The translations under genes were made by a program, and so were the position numbers. The notes beneath the pieces are model-generated. The model had not been told where the DNA came from. It saw nothing but the letters and a program-made list of their open reading frames with translations, and made no database searches. This document shows positions 58,806 to 60,453 of a DNA stretch of 64,000 bases, piece by piece (positions within the stretch are counted from its first letter, which is position 1; each line of letters opens with the position of its first letter). Source of the DNA: Paenibacillus sp. CAA11 (GTDB lineage Bacteria; Bacillota; Bacilli; Paenibacillales; Paenibacillaceae). Location: positions 3,620,001 to 3,684,000 of the forward strand of contig NZ_CP028922.1 in assembly GCF_003060825.1 (NCBI RefSeq). The letters run 5' to 3'.

Positions 58806-58829
58806 AGTGAATGATAAACTGGTTAAGAT

Positions 58830-58866
58830 ATGAAAAAGGGGAATCTTACGATCCCCCTTTTTCATA
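58830..58866. terminator. Bidirectional terminator between gpx and the peptide gene
   Basis: TGAAAAAGGGG and CCCCTTTTTCA (about 58831-58841 and 58854-58864) pair around AATCTTACGATC. T runs exist on both strands, so it can end the peroxidase transcript (plus) and the regulator-peptide transcript (minus, 1 nt past the peptide stop). Confidence 0.85.
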
Positions 58867-58977
58867 TTAATTCAATTCCCCACCAGCACCATGAGTTAAA
58901 AGTGTAATGAGCGGGCTGCTATAAACACTAACTGCAAACAGAAATCCCATCGATAGCAACAGTTTGACTTTTTTCAT
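58867..58977 (-). CDS. Secreted pre-peptide, candidate quorum-sensing signal (Phr/AloP-like)
   Basis: The 36-residue open frame has a strong ribosome site, AAGGAGG, 9 nt before its ATG. The N-terminus is MKKVK, followed by the hydrophobic core LLLSMGFLFAVSVYSS (6-21), a signal-peptide or membrane-export segment. The tail is PLITLLTHGAGGELN. Its first 50 nt lie in another frame inside the 3' end of the HTH-TPR regulator gene, and a terminator follows at once. This is the layout of RRNPP pre-peptides (Phr, PapR, NprX, AimP, AloP): export, trimming to a C-terminal oligopeptide (perhaps around THGAGG), re-import and binding to the neighbouring regulator. The mature form and function are inferred. 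Confidence 0.8.
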   Translation of the reverse strand: MKKVKLLLSMGFLFAVSVYSSPLITLLTHGAGGELN

Positions 58978-60337
58978 GTTCCCAAGCCTCCTTACAAATA
59001 TAATTATATTTATATTGAAGGTCTGTGCTGACATATTCACGATATCTCTCAAATAGAAGCATAGAGTCGGCCATTAAAGCCTTGTCTTGAGTAGTTAGCA
59101 AAATATTCAGTCTATATAAATTATATTTAGCCCCTTCGTCATAATTCATCGTTTTAAAACAATATTCAGAATAAACTCTACAAAAGTTCTCGTATCGTCG
59201 TAAACTGAAATGTTCTTTATACTGTTTTTTTAGAGTTGTAGGATTAAAACAATTATATGTCTCTAGTTCTTCCGCGAACAATTCTAGAAGACTATCAATC
59301 TCAAAGGAGTATTTTAGCGCGGACTCCAACAAAGTGACCAAACCTTCCATAATTTCAGAAGGATGATCTTTTAGATAATTTATGTACCGTGGAATAGCTT
59401 GAACATTACCCATTTTAATTTCAATGGACATTAGATTTGCTTCCGCATAGCTGCTAAATAGATGAACTGCCGATTTCCCTAGATCATTCAAACCTTGAAA
59501 CCAGCTTAGATCCTTATAATGTTCGATCCATTTCTTCGCTTGTTTAAACATTCCTCTATTCTCAAAAGATCCTGCCTTAAGCAAATAGGCTTGTCCATAA
59601 TAATAGATTAAAGGATATTTGGGCTGATATAACTCTTGACTTTCGCTTCCGGAAAATTTGTAAACCGCCTGCGATAGTTCAATCAGCTCATCTGTCATTA
59701 ACTCCATATCTCCCCATTGCTGCTTCAGATAATACATTTCAGCCAGCATCAGCAAACCGTCAAGCGCCAAAGGCTCTGGCAGCCGCTTGCGATAATTCAA
59801 AAATCGCATGGCGGTTTCTGTAGACTTCTGCCCATCCTTCTCGAAAATTTGAAACAGCCGCAGGTGGCTGATCGCCAAACGTTCTGAGTGGCTTGATTGC
59901 TCGCTTTCTATGATGTACTCATATAACAAAATGGCTGATGGATAATGCCCTCGGAGAAACATCTCTTCTGCGGCATCAAATACTGCCGGATTGTGAGACA
60001 AACGCTCAGCCAGACAGGTTAAAATATCTCGGATGACATCCAGTTTCTCCAATTCGGCACACCGGATCAAGAATGGCCTAAGACGTCTCCAGTTCGGAGC
60101 CACTAGCACAAAGCATTCATCCACAAACAGGGAGTAAAGTGCGCCTTCAGAAAGCCCCATAGCCTGCGTAATCTTATCCAGCTGAGAAACCGATAGCGGC
60201 TTGGGCGGATTCCTATTTAAGATGGCGCTAAATGTTCCGCGGTTAACCCCGGATAGATCAGCGAGCCGCTTAACCGTAATATCAGTGTCTCGAATATAAT
60301 CTTCCATGACTGTACGTATCGTGGCTGTAGCATTCAC
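58928..60337 (-). CDS. HTH-TPR transcriptional regulator of the RRNPP type (AloR/AimR-like)
   Basis: The protein has 469 residues from GTG 60337 (GAGGGTGG upstream). The N-terminal Xre-type HTH is at about 10-62 (ITVKRLADLSGVNRGTFSAI, LDKITQAMGLSEGALYSLF). Residues about 70-460 are all-helical with repeated helix pairs (YPSAILLYEYIIESEQSSH, LLMLAEMYYLKQQWGDMELM, MNYDEGAKYNLYRLNILLT), the TPR-like peptide-binding fold. The PNWRRLRPFLIRCAELEKLD segment after the HTH is characteristic of the abundant Paenibacillus group. It has its own promoter. The overlapping small gene encodes the likely ligand. Target genes cannot be seen from here. Confidence 0.85.
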   Translation of the reverse strand: MNATATIRTVMEDYIRDTDITVKRLADLSGVNRGTFSAILNRNPPKPLSVSQLDKITQAMGLSEGALYSLFVDECFVLVAPNWRRLRPFLIRCAELEKLDVIRDILTCLAERLSHNPAVFDAAEEMFLRGHYPSAILLYEYIIESEQSSHSERLAISHLRLFQIFEKDGQKSTETAMRFLNYRKRLPEPLALDGLLMLAEMYYLKQQWGDMELMTDELIELSQAVYKFSGSESQELYQPKYPLIYYYGQAYLLKAGSFENRGMFKQAKKWIEHYKDLSWFQGLNDLGKSAVHLFSSYAEANLMSIEIKMGNVQAIPRYINYLKDHPSEIMEGLVTLLESALKYSFEIDSLLELFAEELETYNCFNPTTLKKQYKEHFSLRRYENFCRVYSEYCFKTMNYDEGAKYNLYRLNILLTTQDKALMADSMLLFERYREYVSTDLQYKYNYICKEAWEHEKSQTVAIDGISVCS

Positions 60338-60394
60338 ACAAACACCACCCTCATAACAATCATTTAGCAACCATCCAAATATTTGAATAATTTC

Positions 60395-60423
60395 ATTATA
60401 TGTACAAGCTTACAGGCCGTCAA
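60395..60423 (-). promoter_or_regulatory. Sigma-A promoter of the regulator-peptide operon
   Basis: On the minus strand, -35 TTGACG (60418-60423) and a perfect -10 TATAAT (60395-60400) have a 17-nt spacer. The start would be about 60388, 51 nt before the GTG. It begins directly after the terminator of the acetyltransferase gene, so the pair is an isolated transcription unit. Confidence 0.85.
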
Positions 60424-60424
60424 C

Positions 60425-60453
60425 AAAAAAAGACCCTTATTCAGGGTCTTTTT
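60425..60453 (-). terminator. Rho-independent terminator of the GNAT gene
   Basis: AGACCC (60431-60436) and GGGTCT (60444-60449), extended by A/T pairs on both sides, form a stem followed by seven T on the minus strand. It lies 26 nt past the acetyltransferase stop. Confidence 0.85.

Follow-up and report, generated by a model that had tools for sequence, protein, structure and literature searches.

The locus

The window (the whole analysed stretch of 64,000 nucleotides) contains a regulator gene and a small peptide gene that partly overlap on the reverse strand, together with a promoter-like sequence and two hairpins (Table 1). The regulator ORF starts with GTG. The peptide ORF starts with ATG, is read in a different frame from the 3' end of the regulator gene that it overlaps, and encodes MKKVKLLLSMGFLFAVSVYSSPLITLLTHGAGGELN. 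The initial annotation of a helix-turn-helix (HTH) regulator with an overlapping, signal-peptide-like ORF describes a real arrangement, confirmed by the coordinates, the ribosome binding site, the 50-nt overlap and the HTH match; the AAGGAGG motif is present where it had been reported.

Table 1. Features of the regulator-peptide locus, with positions in the window
Feature	Position	Strand	Basis
aloR-type receptor/regulator, 469 aa, N-terminal Xre-type HTH and TPR-like body (by homology)	58928..60337	-	ORF, Pfam, tree, AloR13 similarity, homologs
aloP-type propeptide, 36 aa, 50 nt shared with the receptor gene	58867..58977	-	ORF and ortholog comparison
Codons THGAGGELN and stop, likely mature-peptide part	58867..58896	-	position checked; ortholog tails; mature form predicted from AloP13 (passage on AloP13 in PMC7425212)
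Ribosome binding site AAGGAGG of the peptide gene	58987..58993	-	sequence; ends 9 nt before the ATG
Promoter-like TTGACG-17-TATAAT of the pair	60395..60423	-	promoter scan, 11 of 12 consensus bases
18-bp hairpin and T-run 3' of the peptide gene	58822..58872	-	fold -26.8 kcal/mol, z -9.1
10-bp hairpin and T-run (U-run in RNA) upstream of the promoter	60420..60452	-	fold -13.5 kcal/mol, z -5.0
Weak candidate operator TTTAGCAACCATCCAAATAT in the 5' leader of the receptor gene, like the element before ortholog Spo0E-like genes	60363..60382	+	post hoc regular expression

The N-terminus of the receptor carries a Cro/C1-type HTH at residues 15-67 (Pfam HTH_26, E 5e-5, over the gathering cut-off); among 41 aligned receptor homologs HTH_3 is matched in 23 and HTH_26 in 15. 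The Xre-type HTH proposed earlier therefore stands. The “all-helical TPR-like” body proposed with it was not found in the window protein directly: the protein matches no Pfam TPR model, some homologs do (TPR_7 in 6/41, TPR_2 in 4/41), and the description thus rests on the homologs. The peptide, judged from its sequence, has a basic start and a hydrophobic core, lies directly 3' of the receptor and falls within the range of 32-50 aa set for AloP peptides.

The promoter scan returned 8 promoter-like sites, about as many as shuffled sequences lead one to expect (7.6), so only the high score of the site before the receptor counts. The hairpin 3' of the peptide gene is probably a terminator for both strands, and a glutathione-peroxidase gene converges on it; the upstream hairpin is probably the terminator of the preceding acetyltransferase gene. 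A simple terminator scan flagged neither of the two.

Eight flanking proteins were searched against the other loci, most of which have flanks of only 1.5 to 4 kb, and this limits the synteny comparison. A UbiA-family protein was found at the matching place in two of them (L058 and L060, P. antarcticus and P. macquariensis), where its gene is convergent as in the window; presumably this neighbour is MenA-like. The acetyltransferase gave one partial match of 53 residues in a viral contig (L087).

Placement in the Alo family

Such loci were described in Paenibacillus polymyxa as Alo systems by Voichek et al. in 2020; in the passages of that paper on AloR13-AloP13, mature AloP13 is predicted to be SHGRGG, and AloR13 activates a Spo0E-like gene downstream, which is no longer expressed when the peptide acts (PMC7425212). 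A paper on RRNPPA evolution (PMC9765709) is, from its part on the family, also relevant here. The search of the regulator against AloR gave 35.0% identity to an AloR13 ortholog over 463 aligned columns (query 2-457 of 469, E 3e-91). This lies above the 30% identity which, with 80% mutual coverage, makes a cluster known according to the relevant part of the RRNPP_detector paper (PMC10075063).

The AloR13 reference used is the ortholog from P. brasilensis (L123/L181), not P. polymyxa itself, and was recognised by the exact SHGRGG tail and the downstream Spo0E-like ORF. The pattern for this tail matched in two of six genomes and its backwards control in three of six (one match each). One tail match each in P. 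brasilensis (L123) and Paenibacillus sp. BJ-4 (L124) forms the end of a signal-type frame with a Spo0E-like ORF behind it, and for this reason we take the two peptides as AloP13 orthologs. AloR13-AloP13 and the window pair share an HTH receptor, an overlap of the peptide gene with the receptor gene (also 50 nt in P. brasilensis) and an HG tail. The predicted core THGAGG of the window differs from SHGRGG at two positions, and the window tail has three extra residues (ELN) compared with the AloP13 hexapeptide; a less closely related Alo peptide (L066, ...LTHGAGGY) also contains THGAGG. The peptide specificity of its own that the initial annotation ascribed to the pair is thus a hypothesis.

In a tree of 94 receptors, rooted at the midpoint, the window receptor lies inside a clade of 36 rows (support 100), which is nested in a larger supported group that includes the AloR13 orthologs. 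Its branch is long (0.84), and its nearest relative among the matches listed has 46-47% identity. Receptors of same-genus genomes are identical to those of named Paenibacillus and Fontibacillus records, in keeping with the occurrence of Alo systems in Paenibacillaceae. The claim of a “previously unannotated-type” pair was thus overstated, considering that the type was published in 2020 (PMC7425212, in the part that describes the loci) and that orthologs occur in many named Paenibacillus.

The window genome has five further Alo receptors (27-34% identity). All five are followed by a short end ORF, a candidate AloP, with the tails SHGWGTGED, QDTVGGM, NHGEG, DQIGGF and NHGANY; HG is present in three. 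Sequence, phylogeny, gene overlap and peptide tail together support the Alo branch of the RRNPP systems as the right placement. We believe, with a probability of about 0.9, that the pair is an AloR-AloP peptide quorum-sensing pair.

Orthologs and the neighbouring Spo0E-like gene

Matches at E up to 1e-60 were found in 37 of 59 genomes searched (own included), and 20 of the 35 other same-genus genomes have an ortholog-like receptor (43-47% identity). A single-sequence search of the genome contigs with the window protein found no relative; an alignment-based search of these contigs gave 42 loci. Orthologous Alo loci that keep the peptide intact, from P. timonensis, P. barengoltzii, P. fonticola, P. 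macerans, P. antarcticus and others (L036, L042-L055, L057-L060), have 41-46% receptor identity, and their peptide genes share the MK start and the HG tail; the overlap there is 47 nt, against 50 nt in the window.

A Spo0E-like ORF lies 3' of the peptide gene in 19 of the 26 orthologous loci inspected (the same 19 by tblastn), and Pfam confirms its identity in all three cases tested. In those 19 loci a hairpin-like stretch was seen by eye between the two genes, and the element TTTRGCAAC precedes the Spo0E-like ORF in 16, with a looser form in the other three. The remaining seven loci are L051 (the contig ends there), L058, L060 and four that we take to be P. polymyxa-like; in the last six no Spo0E-like gene was found in flanks of roughly 4 kb. 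Most orthologous loci with an intact peptide thus have the Spo0E-like gene behind the conserved element, and those of P. antarcticus and P. macquariensis, like the window, do not. The view of the pair as an isolated module holds for the near-consensus promoter and the two strong flanking hairpins, and fails for the family, where a Spo0E-like gene adjoins the pair in most loci.

A search of the window found no Spo0E-like gene; the gene that meets the terminator there is the convergent glutathione-peroxidase gene. The genome itself has three Spo0E-like genes, one of them beside another Alo locus (L004). This differs from AloR13, which controls the Spo0E-like gene directly downstream according to the passage on it in PMC7425212, as the gene order in L123 and L124 also has it. 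The adjacent Spo0E-like gene is the likely target in most orthologous loci inspected. Since it is absent from the locus in the window, the target here would be elsewhere (the pair's own promoter or an unlinked gene).

Alternative readings

The receptor could be functional and the peptide gene a decaying relic, so that the receptor is an orphan or senses a peptide from another locus. Losses of this kind do occur. As scored, with one best candidate per locus kept by the script, 24 of the 36 rows of the window clade (window included) have an overlapping peptide and 12 lack it, which means that a receptor can persist without its peptide. In L023 the receptor frame is open and the peptide gene is broken by stops; in L024 the frame is open and the peptide gene lacks its start part. 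All seven P. polymyxa-like loci (L037-L041, L061, L063; the grouping is our assumption) keep the receptor and have neither an intact signal-type peptide nor a Spo0E-like gene in the flanks. The other misses are the deeper rows L027, L031 and L067, and reading all twelve in three frames revealed no intact peptide. The loss of the Spo0E-like partner in the window agrees with decay as well. Against it, the window ORF is intact, with a signal core, a strong ribosome binding site, the overlap typical of the family and the HG tail; we consider a relic improbable here.

Still less probable is that the small ORF is no signal at all, having arisen by chance across the terminator region or encoding a small membrane protein. 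The peptide matches no family in Pfam or PHROG, and its one match in NCBIfam is to a small membrane protein (E 0.07, far under the cut-off). However, its position, overlap and HG tail recur in relatives: 18 of the 20 nearest orthologs have an intact overlapping peptide with an HG tail, and with five distinct named rows added the count is 23 of 25 distinct orthologs. This was the comparison of the 3' overlapping frame that the initial annotation had proposed as a check. The tails vary around the fixed HG (NHGWG, SHGYWG, THGAGN, AHGVGH, FHGWGGR, THGAGY, MHGWS, THGLFN). With Markov resampling of the downstream sequence and with the start and the overlap kept, 0.5% of 48,000 trials gave an ORF of 29-45 aa that has HG among its last ten residues; this is the chance per locus. 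Considering this rate and the conservation in orthologs, the peptide ORF is more than chance.

Selection was estimated on the non-overlapping part of the peptide gene in pairs chosen as close relatives, none of which includes the window. Ten pairs were listed and nine run; L017/L018 was dropped for unequal length, two overlapping pairs were left unpooled and six were pooled. The pooled pairs have 17 synonymous changes per 83.2 sites and 14 non-synonymous changes per 249.8 sites (pS 0.204, pN 0.056, pN/pS 0.27, Fisher p about 3e-4); one of them, L012/L013, goes against the trend with 0 synonymous and 2 non-synonymous changes. In these close pairs of relatives the overlapping peptide is under purifying selection, which also speaks against a frame that carries no signal.

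A Rap-Phr, NprR, PlcR or AimR system instead of Alo would have a similar general layout and is very improbable, given the strong similarity to AloR13, the HTH of the window receptor, which the Rap cluster lacks in the description given by the relevant part of PMC10075063, and a search of the 41-sequence profile against PDB (E up to 10), where no chain named Rap, NprR, PlcR, AimR or PrgX was among the 24 sequences listed.

Alo receptors without HTH

The sixth receptor of the window genome (L006/L127; L127 1501-2376, G000:C1:456104-456976) has no HTH. The passage on receptor domains in PMC7425212 says that all Alo receptors contain one. Receptors without HTH were found in 9 of 40 same-genus genomes (own included, E up to 1e-45) and in P. 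terrae. Of 19 such receptors, 18 (277-300 aa; L127, L128-L139, L174, L175, L177-L179) form one clade with support 100/99; the grouping of this clade with AloR13 is weaker (86/87). The exception, L176, is a separate truncated gene outside the clade, since it alone has same-direction homology to the N-terminal part of the receptor upstream. No same-direction homology to the HTH part was found upstream of the 18 clade genes; L179 has one weak opposite-strand match to the N-terminal part there. Fourteen of the 18 come with an overlapping peptide ORF of their own; several are near copies, and all fourteen have HG in the tail. A promoter-like sequence was seen by eye right before the start in five of ten genes inspected. 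The branch looks like a parallel to the split between Rap and NprR.

Candidate operator and mobile relatives

The regular expression TTTRGCAACN{5,9}AATAT, derived from the ortholog Spo0E promoters, has one match in the window genome, in the aloR leader, and a loosened form has two, of which the second precedes an unlinked Spo0E-like gene; those sites had already been seen when both patterns were adjusted. The backwards control has 0 matches in the window genome and 17 in all across the 40 genomes searched. With a position matrix trained without the window, the core of the leader site scores 11.4 (training sites, when left out, 8.6-21.6), and three other places in the 64 kb score higher. The full-length site scores 3.2, against 16.7-37.3 for the left-out sites; chance levels of this order are also reached upstream of some other orthologs. 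The consensus with up to 3 mismatches is absent from the whole window genome. The operator is too weak to rely on and is kept as a weak lead. The unlinked Spo0E-like gene (L171 1340-1640, G000:C1:721279-721404) has upstream TTTGGCATCATCGGTTACAATAT, which resembles the element before the ortholog genes; this likeness is also post hoc. The gene could be the target that the locus lacks in cis.

Relatives of AloR occur on mobile DNA. In Brevibacillus phage SecTim467 (L122, 2161-3984) an annotated Spo0E gene immediately precedes an AloR-like gene, which in turn is followed by a small ORF that overlaps it. AloR relatives are encoded at thirteen loci (L078-L090) of twelve viral contigs, and eight of these loci show a candidate peptide of the signal type; the contig of L078 may hold host DNA, since its receptor has the same sequence as one from a Paenibacillus chromosome. 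A plasmid of P. polymyxa ATCC 842 (L121 3831-3962) bears an Alo receptor; the small protein that overlaps it is annotated and has the tail YIGGA.

Discussion

We presume that the pair works as AloR13-AloP13 does. The propeptide would leave the cell by means of its N-terminal signal, and extracellular processing would release a short C-terminal peptide of roughly THGAGG or perhaps THGAGGELN. An oligopeptide permease would bring this mature peptide back into the cell, where the TPR-like body of the receptor would bind it and the activity of the receptor at target promoters would change. By analogy, layout and mode of action are like those of Rap-Phr and NprR-NprX in Bacillus.

It is tempting to propose that the pair was freed from a Spo0E-like target in cis and rewired, via an element captured by its leader, into a self-regulating or trans-acting signal, with crosstalk to the five other Alo loci, including the receptor without HTH that could compete for similar HG peptides; we regard this scenario as doubtful.

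The window pair adds a new, well-supported member to the published Alo family. The monophyletic Alo branch without HTH is the least expected result and deserves a study of its own. The comparison of orthologs yields a testable rule for the order of elements: hairpin, conserved element, then Spo0E-like gene. Lineages in which the peptide or the Spo0E-like gene, or both together, have been lost are useful for studying the connection between quorum sensing and sporulation in Paenibacillus.
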